64,000 nucleotides of DNA from Pigmentiphaga sp. NML030171. GTDB lineage: Bacteria; Pseudomonadota; Gammaproteobacteria; Burkholderiales; Burkholderiaceae_B. A program made the translations under genes and the position numbers. The DNA lies in the NCBI RefSeq assembly GCF_002188635.1, contig NZ_NINX01000003.1, positions 1 to 64,000 on the forward strand, in the 5' to 3' direction. Shown here one piece after another: positions 1,914 to 38,871 of the stretch (positions are counted from its first letter, which is position 1; every line of letters begins with the position of its first letter). The notes under the pieces were generated by a model. That model ran no database searches and was not told where the DNA came from. It was given only the letters and a program-made list of their open reading frames with translations.

Positions 1914-1960
1914 CGGGATCCTTTCCGGCTGTGGATGACAGGAAAGGCGGCATGCGAACG

Positions 1961-1983
1961 TGGTGCATACATGTGGCATACCA
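1961..1983. promoter_or_regulatory. Candidate operator for the FCD-GntR regulator
   Basis: A 23-base stretch begins TGGTGCATAC and ends GGCATACCA, giving TGGT...ACCA ends and a repeated GCATAC core. TGGT-N-ACCA patterns are common for FadR/FCD-type GntR repressors. It lies 48 bases upstream of the binding-protein start. The symmetry is imperfect, so this is a suggestion only. Confidence 0.3.
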
Positions 1984-2230
1984 CCTTGATGCCACGGTTA
2001 TGCAAGTCACATGCCAGCATGGGAACCGGCGTGCGGGAATGACCTGCATCTCCAGTAAAACCGGGGCTTTCAGGGCGAAAGCAAGGACACGACGAAGCAA
2101 CGCATGCGACCGCCGCAGGAATCAGACGCCGCACCACCAAGGGGCTGGCGCCGGCCTATGTTGGTGCCGGGCGGGGCACGAGCCGACTCGGTCGAATGCG
2201 GGTTAACCCTGAATAGTGAGTCCGTTTCAA

Positions 2231-2259
2231 CTGGTCTACTATCCGTACCAGCAGACCAG
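2231..2259 (+). promoter_or_regulatory. Inverted repeat overlapping a likely promoter of the sulfatase/sugar-acid operon
   Basis: CTGGTCT at the left is matched exactly by AGACCAG at the right, separated by 15 bases. An extra TACCA between them gives three half-sites of the TGGT/ACCA kind. The sequence TACTAT inside it resembles a -10 box. It sits 34 bases before the first Bug gene of the operon. The GntR/FadR-type regulator encoded as the third gene of that operon is the natural candidate to bind here; that link is inferred. Confidence 0.4.
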
Positions 2260-2292
2260 CACCCGATCCCACCCGCAAGGACCACCCCGCTC

Positions 2293-3285
2293 ATGAGCTT
2301 CCGTCTTCCCCGCATTCCGCGCCGCCGGTCGCTGGCCGCGCTGGCCGCCGGCCTGCTGCTGGCCACGGCCGGCACCGCCGCCGCCCAGGACTATCCGCGC
2401 CAGCCCATCAAGGTGCTGGTGCCGTCGGTGCCCGGCAGCGCGCCCGACGCCTTCGCCCGTATCCTGGCGGAACCCCTGTCCAGCGGGCTGGGGCAGAAGG
2501 TCGTGGTCGAGAACAAGCCCGGGGCGGGCGGGCTGATCGCGATGGAAACGCTGGCCAAGGCGGAGCCGAACGGCTACACGCTGGCGATCGCGCACGACGG
2601 CAACATGGCGATCAACACCATCGTCTACAAGCAATTGCCCTACCGGCCCTTGCAGGATTTCACGCCGGTCTCGCTGCTGGGTTTCAACGAGTTCGTGCTG
2701 GCGGCCAACCCCGCCCTGAAGATCAAGACCTTCGCCGAATTCGTGGCCTACGCGCGCGGCAAGCAGGGCAAGGCCACGTACGGGTCGGCGGGCGTGGGTT
2801 CGCCCAACCACCTGTTCATGGAACAGCTGATGCAGGCCGCCGGTATCCCGCTTTCGCACGTGCCCTACAAGGGCGGGCCGGCCGCGATGCAGGATCTGCT
2901 GGGCGGCCAGATCGACGTGATGCTGGTCGGGCTTTCGCCCGCGCTGCCGCACATCCAGGGCGGCAAGCTGGTGGCCGTGGCGGTGCCGCAGTCCACGCGC
3001 TCGAAGATGCTGCCCGGCACGCCCACGGTGGCCGAATCCATCCCGGGTTTCGCGACGCGCACGTGGTTCGGGCTGTACGGTCCGGCGGGCCTGCCGGCGG
3101 CGGTGGTCGAGCGCCTGAACCGGGAGCTGCGCCGCGTGCTGGCCGATCCTTCGGTGAAGGACCGCATCGCCGCGCAGGGCATGGTGGCCGAGGCCGGTTC
3201 GCCCGCCACGCTGGCGGCCATGACGGAAGAAGACATCCGCCGCTACCGCCAACTGGCCGACGCGATCAAATTAGAAGCGAATTGA
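2293..3285 (+). CDS. Bug/TctC-type tripartite tricarboxylate transporter binding protein
   Basis: This periplasmic solute-binding protein has about 330 residues. It starts with a long basic n-region (RIPRRR), a hydrophobic core and a cleavage region TAAAQD. The mature sequence has the Bug hallmarks: YPRQPIKVLVPSVPGSAPD near the start, VVENKPGAGG at about residue 75, PNGYT, and a C-terminal helix ending RYRQLADAI. The first ATG with a signal peptide was chosen over an upstream in-frame ATG that would add about 60 unrelated residues. Bug proteins bind small carboxylates, aromatic acids or amides. No TctA/TctB membrane subunits are nearby. It heads the long plus-strand operon and probably delivers the operon's substrate. 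Confidence 0.88.
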   Translation: MSFRLPRIPRRRSLAALAAGLLLATAGTAAAQDYPRQPIKVLVPSVPGSAPDAFARILAEPLSSGLGQKVVVENKPGAGGLIAMETLAKAEPNGYTLAIAHDGNMAINTIVYKQLPYRPLQDFTPVSLLGFNEFVLAANPALKIKTFAEFVAYARGKQGKATYGSAGVGSPNHLFMEQLMQAAGIPLSHVPYKGGPAAMQDLLGGQIDVMLVGLSPALPHIQGGKLVAVAVPQSTRSKMLPGTPTVAESIPGFATRTWFGLYGPAGLPAAVVERLNRELRRVLADPSVKDRIAAQGMVAEAGSPATLAAMTEEDIRRYRQLADAIKLEAN

Positions 3286-3296
3286 ACCCACCCCTA

Positions 3297-3353
3297 CGCG
3301 CTTCGCGCGCCCCTCAAGGGGCGGCACTGGCGGACCGGCAAAGCCGGATCCGC
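3297..3353. repeat. Cluster of three hairpins (REP-like element or terminator)
   Basis: Just after the Bug stop lie CGCG-ctt-CGCG, then GCCCC-tcaa-GGGGC, then a longer stem GCGGACCGGC-aaa-GCCGG(a)TCCGC with one bulged base. There is no T-run, so simple intrinsic termination is not certain. From memory, very similar stem-loop strings recur between genes in Achromobacter and related genera. It may attenuate transcription between the binding protein and the downstream sulfatase, or protect the upstream mRNA. Confidence 0.5.
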
Positions 3354-3404
3354 TGTGCCCTGGATCGGACCGCGCACTTCCGCGCGGCGTCATAGAGCAT
3401 CGAA

Positions 3405-4973
3405 ATGTCTACCCTGCGGCCTAATTTTCTGATCTTCGTGACCGACCAGCAGCGCGCGGACCACCTCGGCTGCTATGGCAACACACAGGTGCGCACCCCG
3501 CACATCGACGGCATCGCCGCGCGTGGCACGGTGTTCGAGCGGTGCTACGTGGCCTCGCCGGCGTGCATGCCCAACCGCGCCGCCATCATGACCGGGCGCA
3601 TGCCTGGCGCGGCCGGGGCGCGCATGAATGGCGTGCCGCTGCCGCTGGACAGCCGCACCTTCGCCGACGCGCTGCGCGAGGCGGGCTGGCGCACGGCGCT
3701 GATCGGCAAGAGCCATTTGCAGAACATGACGGACGTCGAGCCGTCCTGGCGCAAGGGCGAGGCCGCCGACCGGCCGCAGGCACGGCGCGAGGACCGCGAT
3801 TGCGCCGCCTACGAGCAGGAGTCGGTGGTGCGCTGGCGGGACCCGGACCATGCGGTGCGGCTGCCCTACTATGGTTTCGATCACGCCGAACTGTGCCTGG
3901 AGCACGGCGACGAAGTCGGCGGCGCCTACGACCGCTGGTTGCATGCCCGCTGCCCCGAGGCCGACACGCTGCGCGGCCCGGACCACGCCCTGCCCGGCGG
4001 CAAGACGGCGGCGCCGCAGGCCTGGCGCACCGCGCTGCCCGAGGACCTGTATCCCAGCGCCTTCGTCCGGGACCGCGCCATCGACTGGCTGGAAGACCAT
4101 GCGGCACGGGGCGGCCAGCCCTTCCTGCTGGCCTGTTCCTTTCCCGACCCGCACCACCCCTTCACCCCGCCCGGCCGCTACTGGGACATGTACCGGCCCA
4201 AGGACATCGAACTACCCGCGACCTGCGGGCCGGCCACGCCGGCCGACACGCCGCTCAAGCGCGCGCTGCACGAGGAACTGGCTGCCGGGCGCCGTTCCAC
4301 GGCCGGCAGCCGGGTCATCGCCGTGACGCAGGACGAGGCCCGCGCGGCCATCGCGCTGAACTACGGCGCCATCACCTGCATCGACGACATGGTCGGCGCC
4401 ATCCTGGCCAGGCTGCAAGCCCTGGACCTGGCGCGCGACACCGTGGTGCTGTTCCTGAGCGACCACGGCGATTTCATGGGCGACCACGGCCTGCTGTTCA
4501 AGGGGCCGCTGCACTACCGCAGCGTGATCCGCATGCCGCTGATCTGGGCCGACCCCCAGGCCGGCGCGGGCGGCCGGCGCGCCGATCTCGCCAGCGCGAT
4601 CGACATCGGCCCGACCATCCTGGCGCGCGCGGGCCTGGCCGCGCCGCATGGCACGCAGGGACGCGACCTCGCCCCCGCCGCCGCGCCGGCCGCGGCGCGC
4701 GCCTCGGTCCTGGTCGAGGAAGAAGGCCACCGCCCCATGCCCGGCAGCGGCCTGCCCAAGGTTCGCACGCTGGTCACGCCGGGCTGGCGGCTGTCGGTCC
4801 ACGCCTTCGAGGAATGGGGGGAACTCTACGATCTGCGCGAAGACCCCGACGAACGCGTCAACCGCTGGGACGATCCGGCCTGCGCCGCCGTGCGGGCGGA
4901 ACTGACGCTGGAACTGGTGCGCGCCATGGCGCGCCACGCGGACGAATGCCCGCTGCCCACGCGGATGGCCTGA
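3405..4973 (+). CDS. Sulfatase, alkaline-phosphatase superfamily (type I, formylglycine dependent)
   Basis: This 522-residue enzyme of the arylsulfatase family hydrolyses sulfate monoesters. The formylglycine consensus C-x-P-x-R is present as CMPNR at residues 54-58, followed by AAIMTGR. Metal-binding positions are seen in FVTDQQRADH (D14) and in LSDHGDFMGDHG at about residue 350, with a following Lys (LLFKGP). There is no signal peptide, so the protein should be cytoplasmic and act after uptake. It follows a Bug gene and precedes a GntR regulator and sugar-acid enzymes, suggesting it desulfates an imported ester. A phosphodiesterase or phosphonate-esterase activity cannot be excluded from motifs alone. 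Confidence 0.88.
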   Translation: MSTLRPNFLIFVTDQQRADHLGCYGNTQVRTPHIDGIAARGTVFERCYVASPACMPNRAAIMTGRMPGAAGARMNGVPLPLDSRTFADALREAGWRTALIGKSHLQNMTDVEPSWRKGEAADRPQARREDRDCAAYEQESVVRWRDPDHAVRLPYYGFDHAELCLEHGDEVGGAYDRWLHARCPEADTLRGPDHALPGGKTAAPQAWRTALPEDLYPSAFVRDRAIDWLEDHAARGGQPFLLACSFPDPHHPFTPPGRYWDMYRPKDIELPATCGPATPADTPLKRALHEELAAGRRSTAGSRVIAVTQDEARAAIALNYGAITCIDDMVGAILARLQALDLARDTVVLFLSDHGDFMGDHGLLFKGPLHYRSVIRMPLIWADPQAGAGGRRADLASAIDIGPTILARAGLAAPHGTQGRDLAPAAAPAAARASVLVEEEGHRPMPGSGLPKVRTLVTPGWRLSVHAFEEWGELYDLREDPDERVNRWDDPACAAVRAELTLELVRAMARHADECPLPTRMA

Positions 4974-4983
4974 GGAGACAGGT

Positions 4984-5751
4984 ATGCTTACCGAACCAGT
5001 GGCCAAAGTGACAGGGATCACCCGTATGCAGCTTATTTCCCGTATCCCCGGCGATACCCCCAACATCACGCGCCGGACCATCCGCGACCAGATCAGCGAC
5101 AAGCTGGCCTACATGATCCATTCGGGCCTGCTGCGGCCGGGCGACGAACTGCCTTCCGAACGCGAGCTGGCGACCACGCTGGGGGTGTCCCGCGAGACGG
5201 TCCGGGCCGCCATCGGCATGTTGCAGGCATGGCGCATGCTGGAAGTCAGCCAGGGCGCCCGTACGCGCGTGCTGGGTCCGGGCACGGTGGCGGTGCAGGA
5301 CTCGGTCAGCACGCTGCGCGACCTGGGCGACCGCTCGCTGGAGGAAGTGGCCGAGGCACGCGCCGCGGTGGAGGTGCAGGTGATCCGCCTGGCGACCCGC
5401 CGCATCACCCCTGCCCAGTTGAGCCGGCTGGACCGCCTGGTGGCGGACCAGGAAACCATGATGGACGATCCCGTCCGCTTCCAGATCTCGGACCAGGAGT
5501 TCCACGAGGTGCTGTACCGCGCCTGCGGCAACGGCCTGCTGGCCGACGTCGTGTTCGACTTCTACGGCTACGCGCTGGAGCACCGGCGCCGCGCCTTGCA
5601 GCGGTCGGGCGCCATCGCGCACAGCGTGACCGACCACCGCGCCATCGTCGCCGCGCTCAAGAGCGGCGACCCGGAAACGGCAGTGGCCGCCATGCAGCGG
5701 CACCTGGACCAGGTCCATCGCACCACGCTACAGGAAATCGATCACTCATGA
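4984..5751 (+). CDS. GntR/FadR-type transcriptional regulator (FCD domain)
   Basis: The protein has 255 residues, with a winged-helix domain at about residues 28-95 (LAYMIHSGLLRPGDELPSER, then ELATTLGVSRETVRAAI) and a C-terminal FCD domain. The ATG at the listed start follows GGAGACAG at good spacing; a second ATG 42 bases in is possible but has a poorer ribosome site. It begins ten bases after the sulfatase stop, and its own stop overlaps the next start (ATGA). It is therefore embedded in the operon it probably represses, with release by a pathway intermediate. The inverted repeat before the first gene is its best candidate operator. Confidence 0.88.
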   Translation: MLTEPVAKVTGITRMQLISRIPGDTPNITRRTIRDQISDKLAYMIHSGLLRPGDELPSERELATTLGVSRETVRAAIGMLQAWRMLEVSQGARTRVLGPGTVAVQDSVSTLRDLGDRSLEEVAEARAAVEVQVIRLATRRITPAQLSRLDRLVADQETMMDDPVRFQISDQEFHEVLYRACGNGLLADVVFDFYGYALEHRRRALQRSGAIAHSVTDHRAIVAALKSGDPETAVAAMQRHLDQVHRTTLQEIDHS

Positions 5752-6668
5752 GCACTCCCGTTTCCCTGGACCCGCGCGCCGCGGGCCTGTTCGGGCCCGA
5801 CAGCCGGCTCGAACGCCTGTACACCGGCGCCACCTGGAGCGAAGGCCCGGTGTGGCTGGCGGCGCAGCGCATGATGCTATGGAGCGACATCCCCAACAAC
5901 CGCATCCTGGCCTGGGACGAGCGCGAGGGCGGACGGGTCTGGCGCGACGAGGTCGACTTCACCAATGGCCACACCGCCTCGGCCGACGGCTCGCTGCTGC
6001 ACTGCTCGCACGGCATGCGCGCCATCCTGCGCACGCGCTTCGACAGCGCCGGCCGCCCCGGCGCGCCCGAGGTGCTGGTCGATCGCTATCAGGGCCGCCG
6101 GTTGAATTCGCCCAACGACCTGGTCGAGAAGCGCGACGGCAGCATCTGGTTCACCGACCCTCCCTACGGCATCCTGTCCGACCGCGAAGGCCACCAGGCG
6201 CCGTCCGAGCTGCGCGCCAACTACGTGTTCCGCTACGACCCGGCCACCGGCGCGCTGGACGTCGCCAGCGACCTTGCCGAGGAACCCAACGGCCTGGCGT
6301 TCTCGCCCGACGAAAGCGTGCTGTACGTGACCGACACGTCGGCCGCGCTGCGCACGGACGGCAGCGGCAATCACCACATCCTGGCCTTCGACGTGATCGG
6401 CGGCCGCACGCTGGCCCGCCCCCGCGTGTTCGCGGTGGTCGAGCCCGGACTGGCCGACGGCATACGGGTGGACGAACGCGGCCGGGTCTACAGCAGCAGC
6501 GAGGACAGCGTCCAGGTCTATCACCCCGACGGCACGCGCCTGGCCCGCATCCCCGTCCCCGAGAAGGTCGGCAACCTGACCTTCGGCGGCGCCGCGCGCG
6601 ACGAACTCTACATCTGCGCGTCGACCTCGCTGTATCGCATCCGCCTGAACACGCACGGCCATTCCTGA
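5748..6668 (+). CDS. SMP-30/gluconolactonase/LRE family lactonase
   Basis: This 306-residue six-bladed beta-propeller hydrolase typically opens sugar-acid lactones. Metal ligands expected for the family are visible: Glu in ATWSEGPVW (about residue 32), Asn in RLNSPNDL, Asn in EEPNGLAFS and Asp in LADGIRVD. There is no signal peptide. The ATG overlaps the stop of the GntR gene (ATGA), implying translational coupling. With the downstream dehydratase and semialdehyde dehydrogenase it fits the lactonase step of an oxidative sugar pathway. The true lactone is unknown. Confidence 0.9.
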   Translation: MSTPVSLDPRAAGLFGPDSRLERLYTGATWSEGPVWLAAQRMMLWSDIPNNRILAWDEREGGRVWRDEVDFTNGHTASADGSLLHCSHGMRAILRTRFDSAGRPGAPEVLVDRYQGRRLNSPNDLVEKRDGSIWFTDPPYGILSDREGHQAPSELRANYVFRYDPATGALDVASDLAEEPNGLAFSPDESVLYVTDTSAALRTDGSGNHHILAFDVIGGRTLARPRVFAVVEPGLADGIRVDERGRVYSSSEDSVQVYHPDGTRLARIPVPEKVGNLTFGGAARDELYICASTSLYRIRLNTHGHS

Positions 6669-6677
6669 GAGCCCGCC

Positions 6678-7604
6678 ATGAGCCAAGACACCCTTTTGCT
6701 GGTAGAAAAATGTTCGCACTGCATCAGCTGGTACGACCCCGAGTCGGGCGAGCGGCTGCGCAGCCTGCCCCTGCCCGACTTCCCGCATGAATTCGCGATC
6801 GACTCGGCCCAGCGCTACGTCTACGTGGGGCACTATGGCGTCGAGACCTCCGGCCACGTCGGCCCGGGGGGATCCGCGATCCTGCAGATCGATATTCGTT
6901 CGGCCCAACTGGTAAGGTCTATAGACCTGTTCCCGTTCAACCGCATCCACGGCATGCAGATGGACCAGCACGACCGGCTCTACGCGCTGAGCGAGGAAAA
7001 GGCCATGCTGCTGGTGCTGGACCAGCCCGACACCGACACCGCGCCCAAGCGCGCCATGCCCTCGGGCGGCGTGAAAAGCCATCTGTTCGTGCTGACGCGC
7101 GACGGCCAGACCGCCTTCAGCATGAACCTGCTCAGCCACACGGTGACCAAGCTGCGCCCCTGGGAACCGCTGTCCCAGCCCGTGGCCTGCCATCCCGGCC
7201 TCAAGCCCGAAGGCTGCTGCCTGAGCGAGGACGAACGCACGCTGTTCGTCAGCAACCGCTGGAGCAACACGCTGTCGGCCATCGACACCCAGACCATGGA
7301 AGTGCGCCTGACGGTGCCCTCGCGCGAGGATGCGACCCGCATCTACCGCGCCGGCAACCGCCTGCTGGTGACGAACTACGGCGACCGCAGCGTCTCGGTG
7401 GTCGACCCCGTCACCCTGCAGGAAACGGGCTACGTGAAGATGGACGCGCGCGCCATCGCGCTGTCGCTCCATCCCACGCGGCCATTGGCCTACATCTCGC
7501 AGGACGACGACCGCGTCGGCGTGCTGGACCTGCAATCGCTGCGCTTCACCCGCTTCATCGCCACGCAGCGCGAACCCGACGTCTCCCGGATCGTCCGGAT
7601 CTGA
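6678..7604 (+). CDS. YncE/YVTN-like beta-propeller protein
   Basis: The protein has 308 residues with repeated blade motifs such as RTLFVSNRWSNTLSAIDT, NRLLVTNYGDRSVSVVD and PLAYISQDDDRVGVLDL. These are typical of YncE or lactonase-like seven-bladed propellers. No export signal is visible, which differs from many YncE proteins. It lies nine bases after the lactonase gene in the same operon. It could be a second lactonase, or a structural or ligand-binding component; no catalytic residues are convincing. Function unknown. Confidence 0.7.
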   Translation: MSQDTLLLVEKCSHCISWYDPESGERLRSLPLPDFPHEFAIDSAQRYVYVGHYGVETSGHVGPGGSAILQIDIRSAQLVRSIDLFPFNRIHGMQMDQHDRLYALSEEKAMLLVLDQPDTDTAPKRAMPSGGVKSHLFVLTRDGQTAFSMNLLSHTVTKLRPWEPLSQPVACHPGLKPEGCCLSEDERTLFVSNRWSNTLSAIDTQTMEVRLTVPSREDATRIYRAGNRLLVTNYGDRSVSVVDPVTLQETGYVKMDARAIALSLHPTRPLAYISQDDDRVGVLDLQSLRFTRFIATQREPDVSRIVRI

Positions 7605-7635
7605 GCCCCTTCCCCTTCTTGATGGCTGACATTCC

Positions 7636-8664
7636 ATGACTACCCCTCTTCGTCCCGTCGTCGCGCTTACCCTGGGCGATCCCGCGGGCATCGGTCCCGA
7701 ACTCGTCGCCCGGCTGCTGTCGCGGCCGGACGTCCCGCGCCAGGCCAACATCGTGCTGGTCGGCGATCCCTGGCTGTGGGAACAAGGCCAGCGTGTGGCC
7801 GGCGTACGGGTCGGGACCCGTCCGGTCGAGGACTTCGCCGAAGTCCGCGCGCGTCCGGATGCCGACGTGCCCGCCTTCCTGCCCATGAATACCGTCGACC
7901 CGGTGGACGTGATCGTGGGCAAGGCGCGGGCGGCGGGCGGCAAGTCGGTGCTGCAAGTGCTGGACCGCTGCATGACCGCGGCCATGGACGGCCAGATCGA
8001 CGCCATCTGCTTCGCGCCGCTGAACAAGCACGCGATGAAGCTGGGCGGCCTGCGCCACGAGGACGAGCTGCATCACTTCGCCGAATACCTGGGCGTGACC
8101 ACCTATTTCTGCGAGTTCAACACCATGGGTTCACTGTGGACCTCGCGCATCTCGTCGCACATTCCCATCAAGGACGTGCCGCGCTACATCGACAAGGACC
8201 GCATCAAGGACGCCACGCGCCTGATCCACCGCTCGCTGCTGGCCAACGGCGTCCAGGCCCCGCGCGTGGCGGTGGCCGCGCTCAATCCGCACGGCGGGGA
8301 CGGCGGCACCTGCGGCCGCGAAGAGGTCGAGATCATCGAACCGGCCGTGCGCGAACTGGTGGCCGAGGGCCTGCCCATCGAAGGCCCGTACCCGGCCGAC
8401 ACCATCTTCCTGAAGGCCCGCGACGGGCTGGTCGATGCCGTCGTCACCATGTACCACGACCAGGGCCAGATCGCCATCAAGCTCCTGGGATTCTCCAAGG
8501 GCGTGACCGTGCAGGGCGGACTGCCCATTCCCATCACCACGCCCGCCCACGGCACCGCCTACGACATCGCCGGCCAGGGCCGCGCCGACGACAACGCCAT
8601 CGCCAACGCCTACGCCATCGCCTGCCGCATGGGCCTGGCCCAGCGCCAGGCCGCCACCCGATAA
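7636..8664 (+). CDS. PdxA-family (4-hydroxythreonine-4-phosphate dehydrogenase-like) NAD-dependent dehydrogenase
   Basis: The protein has 342 residues. PdxA enzymes oxidise a beta-hydroxy acid and then decarboxylate it, using a divalent metal. Seen here are [12 protein letters not shown] at residues 12-23 and three metal-binding His in [11 protein letters not shown] (H175), NPHGGD (H219) and MYHDQGQ (H274). After the conserved N130-K131, the position where PdxA has the phosphate-contacting GHTE reads DELH (143-146). Phosphate recognition is therefore probably lost, as in TphB-like diol dehydrogenases of this family. No kinase gene accompanies it, unlike PdxA2 threonate clusters. It is likely a catabolic dehydrogenase of the operon, not the vitamin B6 enzyme. 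Confidence 0.85.
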
Positions 8665-8684
8665 CTTTCCTTTCGCGAACCATC

Positions 8685-9857
8685 ATGAAAATCCAATCCG
8701 TCCGCGCCCGCGTCTTCGAATGGAAGGGCAAGACCGTTCCGCCCCAGGCCAATTTCTGCTCCAACGCCATGGACGCCCTATACGACCGCGGCGACTCCAT
8801 GAAGACCTTCCGCTTCCACGGCTGGACCGTGGTCGAGATCGAGACTGACGACGGCATCGTCGGCCTGGGCAACGTCGCGCTGGCGCCGCACATCGCCAAG
8901 GCCATCATCGACCAGTACCTGGCCCCGCTGGTGATCGGCCAGGACCCCTGGGACTACGAATACCTGTGGCAGCGCATGTACCGCTCCACGCTGGCCTGGG
9001 GCCGCAAGGGCGTGGCCATGGCGGCCATCTCGGCGGTGGACCTGGCCATCTGGGACATCCTGGGCAAGTCGGTGAACAAGCCCGTGTTCAAGCTGCTGGG
9101 CGGCCGCACCAAGGAACGCATCCCCTGCTACTACTCCAAGCTGTACCGGGGCGACCTGAAGGCCATGCAGGAAGAGGCGCAGACCTTCCTGGACCAGGGC
9201 TTCACCGCGTTCAAGATGCGCTTCGGCTACGGCCCCAACCACGGCACGCGCGGCGTGGCCGAGAACCTGAAGTCGGTGCAGGCCGTGCGCGAGGTCATCG
9301 GCTACGAGTCCGACCTGATGCTGGAGTGCTACATGGGCTGGGACCTGGACTACGCGCGCCGCATGCTGCCCAAGCTGGAGAAGTTCGAGCCGCGCTGGCT
9401 GGAAGAGCCCGTCATCGCCGACGACGTGGACGGCTATGCCGAACTGTCGCGGCTGAGCGCCATTCCCATCTCGGGCGGCGAGCATGAATTCACGCTGCAC
9501 GGCTTCCGCCAGCTGCTGGACAAGAAGGCGGTGTCGGTCGTGCAGTACGACACCAACCGCGTCGGCGGCATCACCGCTGCCCACAAGATCAACGCGCTGT
9601 GCGAGGCGCATGCCATACCCGTGATCCCGCACGCCGGCCAGATGCACAACTACCACCTGACCATGAGCACGCTGGCCTCGCCCATGAGCGAGTACTTCCC
9701 GCAGTTCGACGTGGAAGTGGGCAACGAACTCTTCTACTACATCTTCAAGGGCGAACCCGTCGCCAAGGACGGCTTCCTGCAGCTGGACGACACGGTGCCG
9801 GGCCTGGGCCTGACCCTGAACACCGAGTATCTCGATCAATTCCAGATCAGCGAGTGA
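8685..9857 (+). CDS. Enolase-superfamily dehydratase (mandelate racemase/L-rhamnonate dehydratase-like)
   Basis: The protein has 390 residues. It has the N-terminal capping domain followed by a TIM barrel. The metal ligands are E214 (LMLECYM), E240 (RWLEEP) and E266 (ISGGEHEF), with candidate acid-base residues K177 (AFKMRFG) and H316 ([11 protein letters not shown]). The first ligand is Glu where related rhamnonate dehydratases have Asp. The overall pattern [16 protein letters not shown] and the C-terminal SEYFP resemble the rhamnonate dehydratase group as I remember it. The expected reaction is loss of water from an aldonate to a 2-keto-3-deoxy acid. It follows the PdxA-like gene by about 20 bases in the same operon. 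Confidence 0.87.
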
Positions 9858-9862
9858 ACATC

Positions 9863-10852
9863 ATGCGCGTCATCCAATTCATCGAGGACGGTCAGCTTTG
9901 CGTGGGCGTCGTGGCCGGCGACGACGAGATCGAAGTCAGCGGCGCCCGCGAGGGCGTGTACGGACTGGCCTTGCAGGCGGCCCGCGAGGGCGTGGCGCTG
10001 GAAGCGCTGGTCCGGCGCCTGGACTCGGGCCGCCGCGTGCGCTACCAGTCGCTGGTGGACGAGCGGCGCCTGCTGCCGCCGGTCACCCATCCCGACGCCG
10101 CCCGCATGCTGATCTCGGGCACCGGCCTGACCCACCTGGGCAGCGCCGCCTCGCGCGATGCCATGCACGCCAAGCTGCAGGAAGACACCAACCTGACCGA
10201 CTCCATGAAGATGTTCAAGCTGGGTGTCGAGGGCGGCAAGCCGGCGGCAGGCCAGGCGGGCGCGCAGCCCGAGTGGTTCTACAAGGGCGACGGCAGCCTG
10301 CTGGTGGCGCCGGAGTGCGACTTCCCCGTGCCCGGCTTCGCGCTGGACGCGGGCGAGGAGCCCGAGCTGGTGGGCGTGTACGTGATCGACGACCAGGGCG
10401 CGCCGCGCCGCATCGGCTTCGCCGTGGGCAACGAATTCTCGGACCACCTGACCGAGCGCTTCAACTATCTGTGGCTGGCGCATTCCAAGCTGCGGCCCTG
10501 CGCGTTCGGGCCCGAGCTGCTGCTGGGCGAACCGCCCGCCGACCTGCGGGGCGCCAGCCGCATCGTGCGCGGCGGCGAGGTCCTGTGGGAAAAACCCTTC
10601 GTCACCGGCGAGGCCAACATGAGCCACACCCTGGCCAACCTGGAACACCACCACTTCAAGTACCCGCAGTTCCGCCGCCCCGGCGACCTGCACGTGCACT
10701 ACTTCGGCACGGCCACGCTGAGCTTCTCCGACCAGATCCGCACCGTGGACGGCGACCGCTTCGAGATTTCGCTGGACGGCTTCGGCCGCCCCCTGCGCAA
10801 CGCCGTCCGCTTCGAGCCCGCGCCGGCCGTGGTCGGCGTCACGTCCCTGTAG
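9863..10852 (+). CDS. AraD1-type fumarylacetoacetate-hydrolase-fold protein
   Basis: The protein has 329 residues with an FAH-type C-terminal core (GFAVGNEFSDHLTERFNYLWLAHSKLRPCAFGPELLLG) and a conserved GTGLTHLGSAASRDAMHAK segment. These match the AraD1 family found next to sugar-acid dehydratases. Such proteins act on 2-keto-3-deoxy sugar acids, for example dehydrating 2-keto-3-deoxypentonate to 2-oxoglutarate semialdehyde. It starts five bases after the enolase-type dehydratase and is followed within eight bases by the aldehyde dehydrogenase. This order matches the last steps of a Weimberg-like pathway. The exact reaction is inferred. Confidence 0.8.
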   Translation: MRVIQFIEDGQLCVGVVAGDDEIEVSGAREGVYGLALQAAREGVALEALVRRLDSGRRVRYQSLVDERRLLPPVTHPDAARMLISGTGLTHLGSAASRDAMHAKLQEDTNLTDSMKMFKLGVEGGKPAAGQAGAQPEWFYKGDGSLLVAPECDFPVPGFALDAGEEPELVGVYVIDDQGAPRRIGFAVGNEFSDHLTERFNYLWLAHSKLRPCAFGPELLLGEPPADLRGASRIVRGGEVLWEKPFVTGEANMSHTLANLEHHHFKYPQFRRPGDLHVHYFGTATLSFSDQIRTVDGDRFEISLDGFGRPLRNAVRFEPAPAVVGVTSL

Positions 10853-10859
10853 AACCGAC

Positions 10860-12302
10860 ATGAACACACCGGAATACCATCTGTACATAGCCGGCGAATG
10901 GATGCCGGGCGTCTCCGCCCGCCCCAACGTCAACCCCTCGGACACCAGCGACGTGATCGGCCTGTACGCCCAGGCCGACGCCGGGCTGGCGCACCGCGCC
11001 ATCGCCGCGGCGGCGCGGGCCCGGCCGGCCTGGGCCGCGTCCACGCCCCAGCAGCGTTTCGACGTGCTGGACGCGGTCGGCGGCGAGCTGCTGGCGCGCA
11101 AGGAAGAGATCGGCCGCATGCTGTCGCGCGAGGAAGGCAAGACCCTGCCCGAGGGCATGGGTGAGGTCGCGCGCGCCGCGATGATCTTCAAGTTCTTCGC
11201 CGGCGAGGCCCTGCGCACGCCCGGCGACTTGCTGCCGTCGGTCCGCCCCAACGTCGGCGTCGAAGTGTTCCGCCAGCCCGTGGGCACGGTCGGCCTGATC
11301 ACGCCGTGGAACTTCCCCATTGCCATCCCGGCATGGAAGATCGCGCCGGCGCTGGCCTACGGCAACACCGTGGTTTTCAAGCCCGCCGAACTGGTGCCGG
11401 GTTCGGCCTGGCTGCTGGCCGAGATCCTGTCGCGCACCGCGCTGCCCAAGGGCGCGTTCAACCTCGTCATGGGCGCCGGCTCGGCCGTGGGCCAGGCATT
11501 CGTCGATTCCCCCGAGGTCCAGGCCATCAGCTTCACCGGATCGGTGGCCACCGGCCGCCGCATCATCGCCGGGGCCGCCGCGCGCGGCGCCAAGGTGCAA
11601 TGCGAGATGGGCGGCAAGAACCCGCTGGTGGTGCTGGACGACGCCAACCTGGAGCAGGCCGTGGAAACCGCGGTGCAGGGTTCGTACTTTTCCACCGGCC
11701 AGCGCTGCACGGCGTCGAGCAAGCTGATCGTGACCGAGAACATCCATGACCGCTTCGTGAAGGCGATGCAGGCACGCATGGCCACGCTGAACGTCGGCCA
11801 CGCGTTGCGGGCCGGCGTGGACATCGGCCCGGTCGTGGACGAGCGCCAGCTCGCGCAGAACCTGTCCTACCTGGACATCGCCCGGCGCGAGGGAGCGCAG
11901 GCCATCACCGGCGGCGAAACGCTGGAGCGCGACACCACGGGCTATTTCCAAGCGCCCGCGCTGGTAACAGGCACCGAGCCCGGCATGCGCATCAACCGCG
12001 AGGAAGTCTTCGGCCCCGTCGCCAGCGTGCTGCGCGCCCGCGATTACGACGAGGCCCTGCACCTGGCCAACGACAACGAGTTCGGCCTGGCGTCCGGCAT
12101 CTGCACGACCTCGTTGAAGTACGCCGCGCATTTCCGGCAGCACGCCCAGGCGGGCATGGTGATGGTGAACCTGCCCACGGCCGGCGTCGACTATCACGTG
12201 CCCTTCGGGGGGACCAAGGCTTCATCCTACGGCCCGCGCGAGCAGGGCCGCCATGCGGCCGAGTTCTACACCACGGTCAAGACCGCCTACATCGCAAGCT
12301 GA
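10860..12302 (+). CDS. Aldehyde dehydrogenase, 2-oxoglutarate semialdehyde (2,5-dioxovalerate) type
   Basis: This 480-residue NAD(P)-dependent aldehyde dehydrogenase has the full catalytic set: N151 (TPWNFP), E249 (CEMGGKN) and C283 (STGQRCTASS). Cofactor-binding motifs VVFKPAEL and SFTGSVATG are also present. The C-terminal SSYGPREQG followed by AAEFYTTVKTAY is characteristic of ketoglutarate-semialdehyde dehydrogenases. It would feed the product of the sugar-acid pathway into the TCA cycle as 2-oxoglutarate. It sits between the AraD1-type gene and the second Bug gene, with 7 and 20 base gaps. Another semialdehyde is possible. Confidence 0.9.
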   Translation: MNTPEYHLYIAGEWMPGVSARPNVNPSDTSDVIGLYAQADAGLAHRAIAAAARARPAWAASTPQQRFDVLDAVGGELLARKEEIGRMLSREEGKTLPEGMGEVARAAMIFKFFAGEALRTPGDLLPSVRPNVGVEVFRQPVGTVGLITPWNFPIAIPAWKIAPALAYGNTVVFKPAELVPGSAWLLAEILSRTALPKGAFNLVMGAGSAVGQAFVDSPEVQAISFTGSVATGRRIIAGAAARGAKVQCEMGGKNPLVVLDDANLEQAVETAVQGSYFSTGQRCTASSKLIVTENIHDRFVKAMQARMATLNVGHALRAGVDIGPVVDERQLAQNLSYLDIARREGAQAITGGETLERDTTGYFQAPALVTGTEPGMRINREEVFGPVASVLRARDYDEALHLANDNEFGLASGICTTSLKYAAHFRQHAQAGMVMVNLPTAGVDYHVPFGGTKASSYGPREQGRHAAEFYTTVKTAYIAS

Positions 12303-12322
12303 AAACCATCCAGGAGACAAAC

Positions 12323-13303
12323 ATGCACTTCCCCACCCGCCACAGGCTGGCCCTGGCCGCCGCCTGCACGCTGCTTGCCCCGCCCGCCGTCCAGGCCCAG
12401 GGCAACTTTCCCAGCCAGCCGGTCAGGATCATCGTCGGCTCGGAGGCCGGCAGCGCGCCCGACGTGCTGGCCCGCGTGCTGGGCAAGGAACTGTCCGCGG
12501 GACTGGGGCAGGCCATCATCGTCGAGAACCGCGCCGGCGCCACCGGCACCATAGGCGCCAATGCGGTGGCCTCGGCCGCGCCCGACGGCTACACGCTGCT
12601 GATGGGCACGGTGTCCAACATCGCGCTGGCCCCATCCTTCTACCCCATCAAGTACAAGCCCACCGAGAGCTTCACTCCCATCAGCATGGTCGCCTCGGTA
12701 CCGCTGGTGCTGGTGGCATCCCCGGCCACCGGCATCGCCAGCGTCGAGCAACTGCGCACCAAGCTGAAACAGGCGGCCAAGGGTTCGTACAGCTATTCCT
12801 CGCCCGGCGTGGGCGGCCCCCAGCACCTGGCCGGCGTGCTGCTGGGCAAGCAGATGGGCACGGAACTGCTGCACGTTCCCTACAAGAGCGGCGGCGCGGC
12901 GCTGACCGCGGTGGCGGGCGGCGAGACCCAGATCGGCTTCGCCGGCATCGCCGCCGCCATCGGCCTGGTGCAGGCCAAGCGCGTGACACCGCTGTTCGTG
13001 ACCGCCGGCCAGCGTTTCCCGCAATTCCCCAACGTGCCGTCGGCGCCGGAAGCCGGGCTGCCCGAGCTGGACGTGGACAACTGGCACGCGCTGTTCGCGC
13101 CGGCCGGCCTGCCCGCGCCGGTGCGCGCCACGCTGGAGGCGGCGGTGAACAAGGCCTTGCAGTCTCCCGAGGTGAAAAAGCAGTTCGAATCGCTGGGCGC
13201 CGCGCCCACGGGCAGCACCGGCAAGGAACTGGCCGAAAAAGTCACCGCGGAAACCGCGCGCTGGACGAAAATCGTCGACGACAACGGCATCAAGGCACAG
13301 TAG
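12323..13303 (+). CDS. Bug/TctC-type periplasmic binding protein
   Basis: The protein has 326 residues, with a signal peptide MHFPTRHRLALAAACTLL cleaved near VQAQ-GN. The mature part starts FPSQPVRIIVGSEAGSAPDVLARVL and continues with IVENRAGATG and PDGYTLLMG. GGAGAC precedes the ATG at good spacing. It is the second Bug protein of the same operon. The operon thus has two separate binding proteins and no membrane subunit. Each Bug is followed directly by a sulfatase, so the two pairs may handle two related sulfated substrates. Confidence 0.88.
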   Translation: MHFPTRHRLALAAACTLLAPPAVQAQGNFPSQPVRIIVGSEAGSAPDVLARVLGKELSAGLGQAIIVENRAGATGTIGANAVASAAPDGYTLLMGTVSNIALAPSFYPIKYKPTESFTPISMVASVPLVLVASPATGIASVEQLRTKLKQAAKGSYSYSSPGVGGPQHLAGVLLGKQMGTELLHVPYKSGGAALTAVAGGETQIGFAGIAAAIGLVQAKRVTPLFVTAGQRFPQFPNVPSAPEAGLPELDVDNWHALFAPAGLPAPVRATLEAAVNKALQSPEVKKQFESLGAAPTGSTGKELAEKVTAETARWTKIVDDNGIKAQ

Positions 13304-14752
13304 ATGAAACCCTCCAACCTGCTGATCATCATGGACGACGAGCACAACAAGAAGGTGCTCGGCTACAACGGCCATCCCATGGTCCGCACCCCCAACCTGG
13401 ACCGGCTGGCGGCGCGCAGCACCTCGTTCGAGGCCGCCTATTCCAGTTCGCCCATCTGCGTGCCGGCGCGGGCCGCCTTCGCCACCGGCCGCCACGTGCA
13501 CGAGACGGGCTACTGGGACAACGCCATCGCCTACGACGGCCGCGTCCCGAGCTGGGCCCACGCGCTGCGCGACGCCGGCCGGCTGGCGGTGTCCATCGGC
13601 AAGCTGCACTACACCGGCGACGACATCGACGGCGGCTTCACCGAGCAGATCATCCCCATGCACATCGAGGCCGGGGTGGGCGACCTGTACGGCCTGATAC
13701 GCGACCCGCTGCCCATCCGCCACCAGTCGGCCGACCTGGCCAAGAGCATCGGGCCCGGCGAAAGCAGCTATACCCGCTACGACCGCGACATCACCGACAA
13801 GACGGTCGAGTGGCTGCAGGCACGCGGCCGGCAGCGCCAGGACCAGCCGTGGGTGCTGTTCACCTCATACATCGCGCCCCATTCGCCGCTGATCGCGCCG
13901 CCCGAGTTCTACGCGATGTACGACCCCCAGGCCATCCCGCTGCCCAAGCGCGCATCGGGCCCGCTGCATCCCTGGATACAGGCCTGGAACGACTGCTACC
14001 GCTTCGACTCGCACTTCGAAAGCGACGAGCAGCGGCGCATCGCCATCGCTTCGTACTTCGGACTGTGCTCGTTCCTGGACCACAACGTCGGACGCATCCT
14101 GCACGCGTTGGAGACCAGCGGACTGGCCGCCGACACCCGCGTCATCTTCCTGTCCGACCATGGCGACAACCTGGGCTCGCGCTCGCTGTGGGGCAAGTCG
14201 ACCATGTACGAGGAATCCGCCGGCATCCCCATGCTGGCCAGCGGCCCCGGCTTCGAGGCCGGACGCAAGGTGCGCACGCCGGTCTCGCACGTGGACATGT
14301 ATCCCACCGTCATGCAGGCGGCCGGCCTGGCCTGCCCCGCGGGGCTGCCCGGCAAGTCGCTGCTGGAGATCGCCGCCGGGCCGGACGACGGCCAGCGCGC
14401 CATCCTGAGCGAGTACCACGCGGCCGGTTCGGTCAGCGCCGCCTACATGCTGCGCCGTGGCCACCACAAGTACATCCACTACACCGGCTACGCGCCCGAG
14501 CTGTTCGACCTGCAGCAGGACCCCGAGGAATTGCACGACCTGGCGGGCAAGCCCGAGAGCACGCCGCTGCTGGCCGGATTCGAGGCGCACCTGCGCGGCC
14601 TGCTGGATCCCGAGGCGGTGGACCGGCAGGCCAAGCGGGACCAGGCCGCGCTGATCGCCCAGCATGGCGGCGCCGAGCGCATCCTCAAGCGGGGCGGCAG
14701 CAGCTACACCCCCATCCCGGGCGAAGAGGTCAAGCTGCTCAATGAACAATGA
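13304..14752 (+). CDS. Sulfatase of the choline-sulfatase-like group
   Basis: This 482-residue type I sulfatase has a formylglycine motif CVPAR at residues 52-56, inside SSPICVPARAAFATGR. The metal-binding acidic pair is in IIMDDEHNKK (D11, D12) and the second metal site is FLSDHGDNLGSRSLWGKS. There is no signal peptide. The start codon directly follows the stop of the Bug gene with no gap. Sequence identity to the first sulfatase of the operon looks low, so this is not a recent duplication. The GEQ-poor C-terminus typical of true choline sulfatases is not evident, and the ester is unknown. Confidence 0.88.
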   Translation: MKPSNLLIIMDDEHNKKVLGYNGHPMVRTPNLDRLAARSTSFEAAYSSSPICVPARAAFATGRHVHETGYWDNAIAYDGRVPSWAHALRDAGRLAVSIGKLHYTGDDIDGGFTEQIIPMHIEAGVGDLYGLIRDPLPIRHQSADLAKSIGPGESSYTRYDRDITDKTVEWLQARGRQRQDQPWVLFTSYIAPHSPLIAPPEFYAMYDPQAIPLPKRASGPLHPWIQAWNDCYRFDSHFESDEQRRIAIASYFGLCSFLDHNVGRILHALETSGLAADTRVIFLSDHGDNLGSRSLWGKSTMYEESAGIPMLASGPGFEAGRKVRTPVSHVDMYPTVMQAAGLACPAGLPGKSLLEIAAGPDDGQRAILSEYHAAGSVSAAYMLRRGHHKYIHYTGYAPELFDLQQDPEELHDLAGKPESTPLLAGFEAHLRGLLDPEAVDRQAKRDQAALIAQHGGAERILKRGGSSYTPIPGEEVKLLNEQ

Positions 14753-15590
14753 CCCGCTCGGACGCGGCCCGCTGCTGCCCGGCCCCGGCGTGCTGGCCGG
14801 CGCCGGCGCGGCGATTCTGGTGGCGCTGGCCGTGCTGGCCTGGGTAGCCGGCGCCGACGCGCTGGCATGGCTGCAACAGTCGATGGTGGACGGCCGGCCG
14901 CACCGCATCGACATGGCCCAGGCCTGGCATGCGCGCGCGATGGTGCTGGCCTGGGCGGTCATGATCCCGCTGGGCATCCTCGCGGCGCGTTTCTTCAAGG
15001 TCATGCCACGGCAGGCGTGGCCGGCGGCGCTGGACAACAAGTGTTGGTGGCACGCGCACCTCGCGCTCCAGATCGGGGGGGTGCTGGCGACCACGGGGGC
15101 GGTGGCGCTGGTCTGGCAAACGTCGGGGTCGGACACGGGGCTGGCCCGCGTGCATCGCGCCTCGGCCTGGGCGACCTGTGCGCTGGCCGCGTTGCAGGTG
15201 CTGGGCGGCATGCTGCGCGGTTCGAAGGGAAATCCGGACGAACCGGGCGACCATTACGACATGACCGGCCGGCGCGTCGTGTTCGAGGCTGCGCACAAGC
15301 TGGCGGGCTATCTGGCGCTGGCCGTGGCGGCCGTGGCGATCGTTACCGGACTGCTGTACGTCAACGCGCCGCGCTGGATGCCGGTGCTGATCGGCGCCTG
15401 GAGCCTGGCATGGGCCGGCGCGTTCGCGTGGCTGCAATGCCGCGGCTGGTGCATCGATACCTACCAGGCGATCTGGGGCGCCGACCCGCGCCACCCCGGC
15501 AATCGCCGGCCGCCCATCGGGCCGGGCATCCGGCAACTGCGCGCTTCCGGCGTGCGCTCGAGCCAGGTCGGAACACCACCCGCCGCCTAG
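14742..15590 (+). CDS. Cytochrome b561-like transmembrane protein
   Basis: This 282-residue integral membrane protein has about six helices. Four conserved His positions fit the eukaryotic-type cytochrome b561 domain: H63 in AWHARAMVLAWAVMIPLGIL, H104/H106 in WWHAHLALQ, H138 in RVHRASAW and H185 in FEAAHKLAGYLAL. The segments AWAVMIPLGILAARFFK and LAALQVLGGMLR match the family pattern. Such proteins bind two b hemes and move electrons across a membrane. The start overlaps the end of the sulfatase gene by 11 bases. Its role in the operon is unclear; it may accept electrons from an oxidation step. The stop overlaps the convergent VOC gene stop in a shared CTAG. Confidence 0.72.
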   Translation: MNNDPLGRGPLLPGPGVLAGAGAAILVALAVLAWVAGADALAWLQQSMVDGRPHRIDMAQAWHARAMVLAWAVMIPLGILAARFFKVMPRQAWPAALDNKCWWHAHLALQIGGVLATTGAVALVWQTSGSDTGLARVHRASAWATCALAALQVLGGMLRGSKGNPDEPGDHYDMTGRRVVFEAAHKLAGYLALAVAAVAIVTGLLYVNAPRWMPVLIGAWSLAWAGAFAWLQCRGWCIDTYQAIWGADPRHPGNRRPPIGPGIRQLRASGVRSSQVGTPPAA

Positions 15591-16531
15591 GCCGCGCTCA
15601 ACGCATCTTCCAGCCTGGCCAGGTCGGCCTCGCCGGCCTGGGCGAACTCCACCAGGAAGCCATCGGGATCGACGGCCGTCAGGCTGCGCGCCGCTGGCGC
15701 GCCCGTCAGGCATCCCAGCGACCGCAGCCGCCCGGCGGCCGCGTCCAGGTCCGTGGCGCCAGCTACGTCGAAGCTGTAGTGGTGCATGCCGGCCACGTCG
15801 CCCTGGATGATCGCCAACTGATAGGCGGTCGGGTGCCCCGAGGCGCGCAGCAGGATGCCGCGTTCAGATCGCGCCACCATCTCCAGCCCCGCCACTTCGG
15901 TATAGAACGCCTCCATGGGCGCCAGCGACGTCGTCGTCAGCACGACGTGCGACAGCCGCAAGGGTTGCATGACCGCGCCGGGCACGGGCCGGCGATCTGG
16001 CTCGGCGCTCCAGCGCCGGTCGGTCGCGGGCGCCTCGCTGCCCGGCTTCCAGGTCGATGTGATCAATTCGACGTCGCCGTGCAGAACGGCGCGCCAGTCC
16101 TTGATGGTGTCGGCGTAGAACTCGTTGGTGTTGCCGTCGGGGTCCTTCAGATAGACGCTGTGGGCGATCTGGTGGTCGAGCGTGCGCGGCACCGCGATGC
16201 CGGCGGCGCGCGCGCGCTCGTAGGCGCGCACCAGCTCGGCTTCGGTGTCCATCTCCCAGGCGATGTGGTTCAGGTTGATCGCCCGCGCCGTGCCCTTGGC
16301 GATCTGCGTGTGGCCGTCGCGGCCCTGGCGGGCCTCGCTCGTGCGCTCCATCATGCCGACGTCGTGAGGCGTATGGCCGGTGCCCATGAAGGCGGCGCGC
16401 AGCCCGCTTTCGGTGAACTCCAGGTTCAGGCCGCAGACGTCGCGATAGAAGTCGATGGACCGCTGCAGATCGGCCACGACGAGGTTCACGTGCCCCAGGC
16501 GGCGGGGTTGGAAGATGGCTCCCTGGTTCAT
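15587..16531 (-). CDS. Two-domain VOC protein, extradiol-dioxygenase type
   Basis: This 314-residue protein has two vicinal-oxygen-chelate modules. Module one has H14 (RLGHVNLVV), H89 (NLNHIAWEM) and E137 (GNTNEFYA). Module two has H195 (RLSHVVLTT), H250/H251 (GMHHYSFDV) and E295 (FLVEFA). Both modules therefore keep a possible His-His-Glu metal site, whereas class I extradiol dioxygenases normally keep only the second. The reaction is probably ring cleavage of a catechol-like or hydroxypyridine-like diol. The ATG overlaps the stop of the upstream hydrolase (ATGA). It is divergent from the flavoprotein monooxygenase gene. Confidence 0.82.
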   Translation of the reverse strand: MNQGAIFQPRRLGHVNLVVADLQRSIDFYRDVCGLNLEFTESGLRAAFMGTGHTPHDVGMMERTSEARQGRDGHTQIAKGTARAINLNHIAWEMDTEAELVRAYERARAAGIAVPRTLDHQIAHSVYLKDPDGNTNEFYADTIKDWRAVLHGDVELITSTWKPGSEAPATDRRWSAEPDRRPVPGAVMQPLRLSHVVLTTTSLAPMEAFYTEVAGLEMVARSERGILLRASGHPTAYQLAIIQGDVAGMHHYSFDVAGATDLDAAAGRLRSLGCLTGAPAARSLTAVDPDGFLVEFAQAGEADLARLEDALSAA

Positions 16532-38837: not shown

Positions 38838-38871
38838 TTTCCGAACGACCGACTTTCTTGCGGACACCAGG

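Follow-up and report, generated by a model that had tools for sequence, protein, structure and literature searches.

We analysed a window of 64,000 nucleotides of Pigmentiphaga sp. NML030171 (the whole stretch, positions 1 to 64,000 of contig NZ_NINX01000003.1), in which a preliminary description had marked a compact operon pairing two modules, each of a Bug-type binding protein and a sulfatase, with a sugar-acid pathway. Its coordinates and strand are borne out: twelve genes occupy one compact run from 2293 to 15590 on the plus strand. In gene order, the intergenic gaps are 119, 10, -4, 9, 31, 20, 5, 7, 20, 0 and -11 bases; the single wide gap of 119 bases lies between Bug 1 and sulfatase 1, and the remaining ten fall within -11 to +31. 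Profile searches confirmed the families of 11 of the 12 genes, the twelfth being the cytochrome b561-like gene. The genes and the upstream site are the following; PGAP stands for the NCBI Prokaryotic Genome Annotation Pipeline.

2231-2259, plus strand: operator-like inverted repeat upstream of Bug 1, from its conservation the probable site of the operon's own GntR regulator.
2293-3285, plus strand: Bug 1, a periplasmic solute-binding protein of the TctC family (PF03401, 227 bits, cut-off 27) with a signal-like N-terminus.
3405-4973, plus strand: sulfatase 1, S1 type, CMPNR motif, without signal peptide (PF00884, 139 bits; nearest solved chain 4upi).
4984-5751, plus strand: GntR/FCD transcription regulator (PF00392 and PF07729), 65% identical to the regulator of the cluster in genome G480.
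5748-6668, plus strand: lactonase of the SMP-30/gluconolactonase family (PF08450, 137.5 bits).
6678-7604, plus strand: YncE-like beta-propeller of type A, the proposed 2,3-diketogulonate rearranging enzyme (PF21783, 29.1 bits, cut-off 27.1).
7636-8664, plus strand: PdxA-family protein, the proposed 2-carboxy-L-lyxonate decarboxylase (PF04166, 289 bits; TIGR00557, 262 bits, under its cut-off of 290).
8685-9857, plus strand: enolase-superfamily dehydratase of rhamnonate/lyxonate (RhamD) type (best solved chains 3stp, 3ssz and 3sqs, E down to 1.9e-190).
9863-10852, plus strand: AraD1, 2-keto-3-deoxypentonate dehydratase (NF040903, 504 bits, cut-off 340).
10860-12302, plus strand: aldehyde dehydrogenase, probably for 2-oxoglutarate semialdehyde (PF00171; best NCBIfam match NF042993, 497 bits, under its cut-off of 770).
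12323-13303, plus strand: Bug 2, TctC family (PF03401, 176 bits).
13304-14752, plus strand: sulfatase 2, S1 type, CVPAR motif, without signal peptide (PF00884, 149 bits).
14742-15590, plus strand: cytochrome b561-like membrane protein, proposed for the ascorbate oxidation step (invariant histidines; PGAP names of homologues).

Presumed functional residues are fully conserved in the central enzymes: the putative metal residues E32, N181 and D237 of the lactonase are invariant in 23 alignment rows, H175, H219 and H274 of the PdxA-like protein in 24, and E214, E240, E266, D289 and H316 of the dehydratase in 25. We assign the roles of these residues, and of those in sulfatase 2 below, by family. 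The dehydratase's nearest solved chains carry names of putative dehydratases only, and AraD1 matched no solved structure. The b561-like protein has four hydrophobic stretches and six histidines (H54, H63, H106, H138, H171, H185) invariant in 15 rows; its name comes from the PGAP annotation of homologues that are 44-49% identical. Neither sulfatase has an N-terminal hydrophobic stretch and both begin directly with the catalytic domain, in agreement with the preliminary description, which had them without signal peptides. Such a stretch is clear in Bug 1 and weaker in Bug 2.

The gene order is conserved, as a comparison suggested by the preliminary description revealed: it recurs in P. kullae (L010), P. 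humi (L011) and two other assemblies. A contig scan with a close-relative query returned 5 loci, of which L009, L010, L011 and L013 were taken as the same records as genomes G407, G401, G400 and G404 and counted once. The propeller is 97-98% identical to copies in P. kullae and two related assemblies, and is present in 6 of 11 Pigmentiphaga genomes, all six with both sulfatases and the b561-like gene alongside. Since the flanking genes on both sides are common to the window and P. kullae and different in P. humi and L013, the unit ends where it had first been drawn, with the addition of the operator-like site at 2231-2259. We found no convincing terminator inside the operon (7 terminator-like matches against 5.7 expected by chance over 1900-15750, both strands), a sigma-70 scan found no promoter, and an Rfam search of the window gave no match.

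The central genes correspond to a known type of pathway. Stack et al. (2020, JACS) reportedly described an L-ascorbate route in Ralstonia eutropha H16. It is said to start with oxidation by a cytochrome b561-family protein and ring opening by a gluconolactonase-family enzyme, to continue with a benzilic-acid rearrangement by a WD40-like protein and then an amidohydrolase lactonase, and to end with a PdxA-family decarboxylase yielding L-lyxonate, which reportedly enters the known lyxonate pathway. The b561-like protein, the lactonase, the propeller and the PdxA-like protein match the front end of this route, not a generic sugar-acid set. The lactonase (PF08450) and the PdxA-like protein belong to the families called for, the latter without a kinase and below the PdxA equivalog cut-off; the dehydratase, AraD1 and the semialdehyde dehydrogenase, which stays below the NF042993 cut-off, agree by family with the lyxonate-type dehydratase, 2-keto-3-deoxypentonate dehydratase and semialdehyde dehydrogenase of the R. 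eutropha tail. The propeller is YncE-like, but two propeller types exist in ascorbate-type clusters, so that the operon's may be of a separate type. Further differences from the R. eutropha pathway are the missing amidohydrolase, the two Bug and sulfatase pairs, the GntR gene and the operator-like site upstream of Bug 1. A passage of PMC11066805, citing Stack et al., gives the chemistry from 2,3-diketogulonate through 2-carboxypentonates to L-lyxonate, and a passage of PMC10444878, with the same citation, reports a SAR202 marine isolate that grows better with ascorbate and encodes a COG4948-dependent route that is nearly complete. We regard it as very probable that the conserved operon is an ascorbate route.

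The preliminary description had read the pathway as a Weimberg-type route; its tail to 2-oxoglutarate was correct, and the ascorbate front end (b561-like protein, lactonase, propeller and PdxA-like protein) was missed. We rejected a generic Weimberg route for a sulfated aldonate, as it leaves the b561-like protein, the propeller and the PdxA-like protein unexplained. A threonate or erythronate route through PdxA2 is rejected for this operon, which holds no DUF1537-type kinase; with no kinase gene at all, a phosphorylated tetronate is an unlikely substrate of the PdxA-like protein. A terephthalate-type PdxA (TphB) was also rejected, its chain 4aty matching much more weakly than PdxA chains (1.8e-29 vs 2e-54).

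Similar clusters occur on two Variovorax plasmids and in Paraburkholderia graminis, Sphingomonas parapaucimobilis, Ruegeria pomeroyi and Phaeobacter. Searches for propeller homologues were positive in 16 of 299 genomes from one family of the order to which Pigmentiphaga belongs, in 5 of 399 drawn from that order as a whole and in 7 of 398 drawn from the phylum (the three draws overlap); most loci fetched around these homologues also hold other core genes. Across non-Pigmentiphaga clusters the dehydratase is 65-86% identical, and most of the other ascorbate-type clusters have a DHDPS-type protein in place of AraD1. As in such clusters elsewhere, the window's propeller directly follows the lactonase.

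Propellers fall into type A, 56-100% identical to the window's and including the Pigmentiphaga operon, and type B, 43-51% identical. An Amidohydro_2 gene accompanies 10 of 11 betaproteobacterial type B loci, L017 being the exception, and the alphaproteobacterial type B loci L019 and L024 lack it. We scanned 19 type A loci outside Pigmentiphaga, of which 15 hold type A alone and four (L044/L045, L055, L056, L064) both types. No amidohydrolase adjoins the propeller in any of the 15 (L066 has a 30% match elsewhere, and some loci end at contig edges). In every locus where both were found, type A directly follows the lactonase; L064 and L066 gave no lactonase match. The ascorbate route thus seems to exist in two forms, one that includes the amidohydrolase and one that lacks it. 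The comparison also bears on the idea that the operon degrades a different enediol lactone or aldonolactone, such as erythorbate or L-lyxono- or L-xylonolactone: the window's propeller is of the type without a neighbouring amidohydrolase, and type B usually has one. Against this, both types are found around one lyxD in the four loci with two propellers, and a b561-like gene, expected for an ascorbate-like reductant, is present in 10 of the 19 type A loci scanned and in L097. We hold a different lactone to be unlikely, and an ascorbate route remains our reading of the core.

Two side observations concern the propellers. In loci L044/L045, L055, L056 and L064 two paralogous propellers coexist: the type A copy follows the lactonase if a lactonase was found, and the type B copy is accompanied by the amidohydrolase. 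In Cupriavidus sp. P-10 (L017, 6679-9930), the lactonase gene and a 51% identical propeller homologue are separated by a cytochrome c gene, whose product is perhaps another electron acceptor for the first oxidation.

Both sulfatases carry the C-x-P-x-R signature of S1 formylglycine sulfatases, as CMPNR in sulfatase 1 and CVPAR in sulfatase 2. In sulfatase 2, D12, C52, P54, R56, K100, H102, H193, D285, H286 and K298 are invariant in 24 rows, the partial row of locus L035 being left out. Close to the catalytic motifs, some residues set the clade apart from its relatives: T104, two residues past H102, is an arginine in 11 of 15 more distant ones; we infer no ligand from it. Although the nearest solved chains of sulfatase 2 are choline-sulfatases, neither enzyme reaches the choline-sulfatase cut-off of TIGR03417 (433 bits), with 300 bits for sulfatase 2 and 205 for sulfatase 1. 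These comparisons also speak to a reading of the sulfatases as phosphonate- or phosphodiester-hydrolase-like enzymes acting on ascorbate phosphate or another ester. The more remote matches of both include PehA and phosphonate monoester hydrolases, and the sulfatase metal site ends in D-H, which we take to be the pair found at the same position in phosphonate monoester hydrolases. Yet the choline-sulfatase 6fny also aligns with a D-H pair, choline-sulfatases are the best matches of sulfatase 2, and both proteins stay far under the PehA cut-off (167 and 168 of 900 bits); we judge such an activity quite improbable and continue to treat the two as sulfatases.

The closest relatives of the sulfatases occur in ascorbate-type clusters. 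A search of 299 genomes with sulfatase 2 gave 22 matches in 18 genomes, and we inspected the neighbourhoods of 14 (G428 and 13 others), the other 8 being 46-51% identical. The two matches at 70-72% identity are the ascorbate-linked ones, in G428 and G586. In G428 the order is bug, pdxA, lyxD, DHDPS, bug2, sulf2, aldh, b561, ATP-binding cassette (ABC) transporter-like genes (read by eye), lactonase, propeller. G586, a fragmented assembly outside the 16 genomes with a propeller, has bug2, sulf2, b561 and lactonase on a 7.7-kb contig. In both, a Bug 2 copy 62-63% identical to the window's precedes the sulfatase. On a plasmid of Polaromonas sp. P1-6 (L035) the order is pdxA, lyxD, bug1, sulf1, DHDPS, bug2, sulf2, b561, lactonase, propeller. 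By comparison, none of 11 sulfatase-2 homologues at 49-54% identity lies near a homologue of the lactonase, propeller, PdxA or b561 genes, and none of the 7 sulfatase-1 matches (47-54% identical), all of which were fetched, lies in an ascorbate-type cluster. A Fisher test of 2/2 close against 0/12 distant sulfatase-2 homologues gives p 0.011, on which we do not rely because the copies are related.

Phylogenetic trees show the same association. In the sulfatase 2 tree, the ascorbate-context rows (9 of 25) form one branch with support 100/97; in that of sulfatase 1, such rows (7 of 17), including the Polaromonas copy, form one branch with support 100/100. Six rows in each tree are Pigmentiphaga near-copies, which inflate these counts; outside Pigmentiphaga, three genomes support the sulfatase 2 branch and a single one supports that of sulfatase 1. 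The Bug and sulfatase pairs belong to the ascorbate operon. Two further loci may be mentioned here. The Polaromonas cluster has broken frames in pdxA, DHDPS, Bug 2, sulfatase 2, b561, lactonase and propeller and is surrounded by insertion sequence (IS) elements; the broken frames reflect either decay or sequencing errors. In locus L095 (G459) two sulfatases, one of them a sulfatase-1 homologue, each have a neighbouring Bug match; a lactonase-like gene lies nearby, as does an aldehyde dehydrogenase with 67% identity to that of the window, and the locus may be a further operon for a sulfated sugar acid.

The sister of the sulfatase-2 clade is a copy in genome G532 (62-63% identical), preceded by a Bug gene 50% identical to Bug 2 and followed by an L-threonate operon, with L-threonate dehydrogenase (LtnD, 477 bits, cut-off 350), 3-oxo-tetronate kinase (OtnK, 639 bits, cut-off 350) and a decarboxylase just below its cut-off (223 of 250 bits). 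According to a passage of PMC11066805, plant ascorbate breakdown yields L-threonate. The G532 context hints at a small lineage of sulfatases linked to vitamin C carbon, and it also fits a second explanation, in which the core is an ascorbate route and the sulfatases act on different small acids bearing a sulfate (L-threonate, lyxonate or related aldonates, for example), the desulfated products feeding this route or a neighbouring one. In Sulfitobacter, too, a 49% identical homologue has a 3-oxo-tetronate kinase and an aldolase in its vicinity, with an intervening IS6 element, and Bug and sulfatase pairs adjoin many different genes. On the other side, all three sulfatase-2 orthologues at 67-72% identity outside Pigmentiphaga (Polaromonas, G428, G586) have b561 and lactonase genes alongside, and for sulfatase 1 the single homologue grouping with the window's clade likewise comes from an ascorbate-type cluster. 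We consider this second explanation somewhat unlikely, though the least so of the alternatives to a sulfated ascorbate as substrate.

Regulation appears to be shared across the operon. The palindrome CTGGTCTACTATCCGTACCAGCAGACCAG at 2231-2259, upstream of Bug 1, is present in each of the six Pigmentiphaga loci, slightly altered in P. humi, even though the DNA further upstream is unlike the window's in L011, L013 and L048. It has one match in the window and none in 100 shuffles. In G480, a site 7 bases before the start of gntR matches the window's 21-base core apart from 3 mismatches (0 of 200 shuffles); there the cluster reads gntR-lactonase-propeller-pdxA-lyxD, the regulator is 65% identical and the 11.9 kb hold no sulfatase. 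Over 97 fetched loci (1,368,611 bases, some overlapping), a combined core at up to 3 mismatches found only the Pigmentiphaga and G480 sites, the exact matches there being by construction because these sites had served to derive the core. With 4 mismatches allowed, further hits appear in L012, about 310 bases before the first matched base of its GntR gene, and within the propeller gene in six loci; the latter hits are in coding sequence and lend no support. From this sequence pattern, the GntR protein probably acts at the predicted operator at 2231-2259, and because pair 1 stands between this site and the regulator gene, it would be read together with the ascorbate genes. A second palindrome, GGGTTAACCC at 2200-2209, lies about 20 bases before the operator-like site and is kept in 5 of 6 aligned Pigmentiphaga upstream regions.

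The pairing of Bug proteins with sulfatases extends beyond this locus. In genomes of one related family, a Bug match lies within ~160 bases of 6 of 7 sulfatase-1 homologues and 4 of 11 other sulfatase-2 homologues (G532 left out), 10 of 18 in total, for which P is ~2e-5 at an assumed background of 13%. A whole TctABC carrier adjoins a sulfatase in Chelativorans, and TctA and TctC do so in Rhodobacteraceae bacterium M382. Together with a third pair in the window, these neighbours indicate that the pairing is a recurrent arrangement. The preliminary description had called Bug-linked cytosolic desulfation an unfamiliar route: cytosolic-looking sulfatases do stand beside Bugs, but the arrangement is not peculiar to this locus, and no description of it appeared among the papers listed by a literature search at title and abstract level. 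One could also suppose that the pairs only scavenge sulfur from mixed esters and have hitch-hiked into the operon; with about 20 sulfatase genes and at least 150 Bug genes in the genome (150 of 357 candidates were scored), such neighbours can arise by chance. The position of pair 1 between operator-like site and regulator gene, the recurrence of the pairs in rearranged clusters and the excess of adjacent Bugs among the other homologues all make this very unlikely, and we retain the pairs as working parts of the ascorbate operon.

The third pair, at 37719-40425, consists of a TctC gene (37719-38837) and a sulfatase (38872-40425), followed by a ferredoxin and an extradiol-dioxygenase-like gene, with a Rieske oxygenase nearby on the other strand; it is perhaps an aryl sulfate version of the module. 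The M382 locus (L041), on a plasmid, brings together two sulfatases, TctA, TctC, a MarR regulator and a formylglycine-generating enzyme (FGE) gene.

Several observations weigh against a sulfated-ascorbate operon. No sequence feature names the sulfatase substrate, and neither sulfatase has a close relative among solved enzymes (best E 2.8e-47 for sulfatase 1 and 1.3e-60 for sulfatase 2). A sulfatase is present in only 2 of 20 type A propeller loci outside Pigmentiphaga (the 19 scanned, with the G428 extension, and L097; several end at contig edges), and the non-Pigmentiphaga sulfatase-2 copies group together and therefore may trace to one acquisition. Propeller homologues of 46-51% identity also occur with few or no other core genes: none accompanies a 48% homologue in Streptomyces (L022), and only one or two do in Cupriavidus L017 and in G314 (L046). 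The Pfam model Cytochrom_B561 is sub-threshold on the b561-like protein (9.6 bits, cut-off 23), and its structure model is poor, with a mean predicted local distance difference test (pLDDT) score of 45 from a shallow 4-row alignment; a second model made in this way for the analysis reached 32. Although the TctC-type binding protein of tripartite tricarboxylate uptake is present (PF03401), no TctA or TctB gene lies within 2293-15590; all five TctA genes of the genome are outside the operon, so the Bugs, being at least 150, would need to share carriers. Cytosolic formylglycine formation is likewise unexplained: the genome's one true FGE has a membrane-type, hydrophobic N-terminus with an arginine pair and adjoins a sulfatase with a lipoprotein-like N-terminus, the other FGE-domain match looks like EgtB (the loci examined were L014, G000:C22, and L015, G000:C55), and no anaerobic sulfatase-maturating enzyme (anSME) was matched in the genome. 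Lastly, the amidohydrolase of the route (2-carboxylyxonolactone lactonase) is not in the operon and the genome's best matches are partial, at 27-30%, with no orthologue; the operon thus departs from the R. eutropha route in one defining enzyme. Possible explanations are that the lactonase performs both openings, that type A propellers yield an open-chain product or that hydrolysis is spontaneous.

Taking all of this together, we give an even chance to the proposal that this is an L-ascorbate catabolic operon with a Bug and sulfatase pair at each end, for the use of sulfated ascorbate. In it, the Bug proteins would capture a sulfate ester in the periplasm and pass it to a TctAB carrier encoded elsewhere, and sulfatase 1, sulfatase 2 or both would remove the sulfate in the cytosol. 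The b561-like membrane protein would then oxidise ascorbate to dehydroascorbate, the SMP-30 lactonase would open this to 2,3-diketo-L-gulonate, the propeller would rearrange it to a 2-carboxy-L-lyxonate species and the PdxA-like protein would decarboxylate the latter to L-lyxonate, which the dehydratase, AraD1 and semialdehyde dehydrogenase would convert to 2-oxoglutarate. The GntR protein would control all twelve genes from the site at 2231-2259. The earlier claim that a sulfated sugar acid or lactone is imported whole thus narrows, on account of the front-end genes, to sulfated ascorbate or a near relative, with the desulfation step inferred from the genes present. The ester would most likely be ascorbate 2-sulfate; its uptake by these Bugs, a division of labour between the sulfatases and the effector of the GntR protein are predictions of the same kind. 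A bolder version, which we put forward tentatively and at somewhat less than even chance, is a dedicated vitamin C sulfate pathway in which Bug proteins capture the ester, one or two S1 sulfatases evolved for this purpose desulfate it in the cytosol and the product enters the ascorbate route, all under one GntR operator; a sister sulfatase branch would serve sulfated L-threonate, making this a small lineage specialised on vitamin C carbon.

Known systems resemble parts of this arrangement. The L-lyxonate pathway of Pseudomonas aeruginosa, reportedly described by Ghasempur et al. in 2014, and other Weimberg-type routes share the dehydratase, the second dehydratase and the semialdehyde dehydrogenase leading to 2-oxoglutarate, which here form the tail of a longer route. 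Choline sulfate is used through an importer and the cytosolic choline-sulfatase BetC. The operon would likewise combine import of a sulfate ester with a cytosolic S1 sulfatase, and sulfatase 2 is nearest to choline-sulfatases among solved structures; unlike that system, its sulfatases fall under the choline-sulfatase cut-off, uptake is of Bug type and the operon has no betaine genes. The Chelativorans and M382 loci also place parts of a tripartite tricarboxylate carrier beside S1 sulfatases, but they include membrane carrier genes and show no ascorbate genes in the annotated stretch. G532 has the closest non-ascorbate relatives of sulfatase 2 and Bug 2 side by side, with threonate dehydrogenase and oxo-tetronate kinase replacing the ascorbate genes. 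What is unusual here is the presence of two Bug and sulfatase pairs in a known type of ascorbate route.

Ascorbic acid 2-sulfate is known from fish and brine shrimp. A passage of PMC11322087 lists it as a vitamin C metabolite measured in a large human cohort, and among the papers that our literature search listed, at title and abstract level, none reported its use by bacteria. If the proposal is true, it would define a specific sulfatase clade, uptake proteins and an operator for ascorbate sulfate, and might supply an enzyme for an ascorbate sulfate assay. It would also assign functions to a small number of the numerous orphan Bug and sulfatase genes in Burkholderiales.

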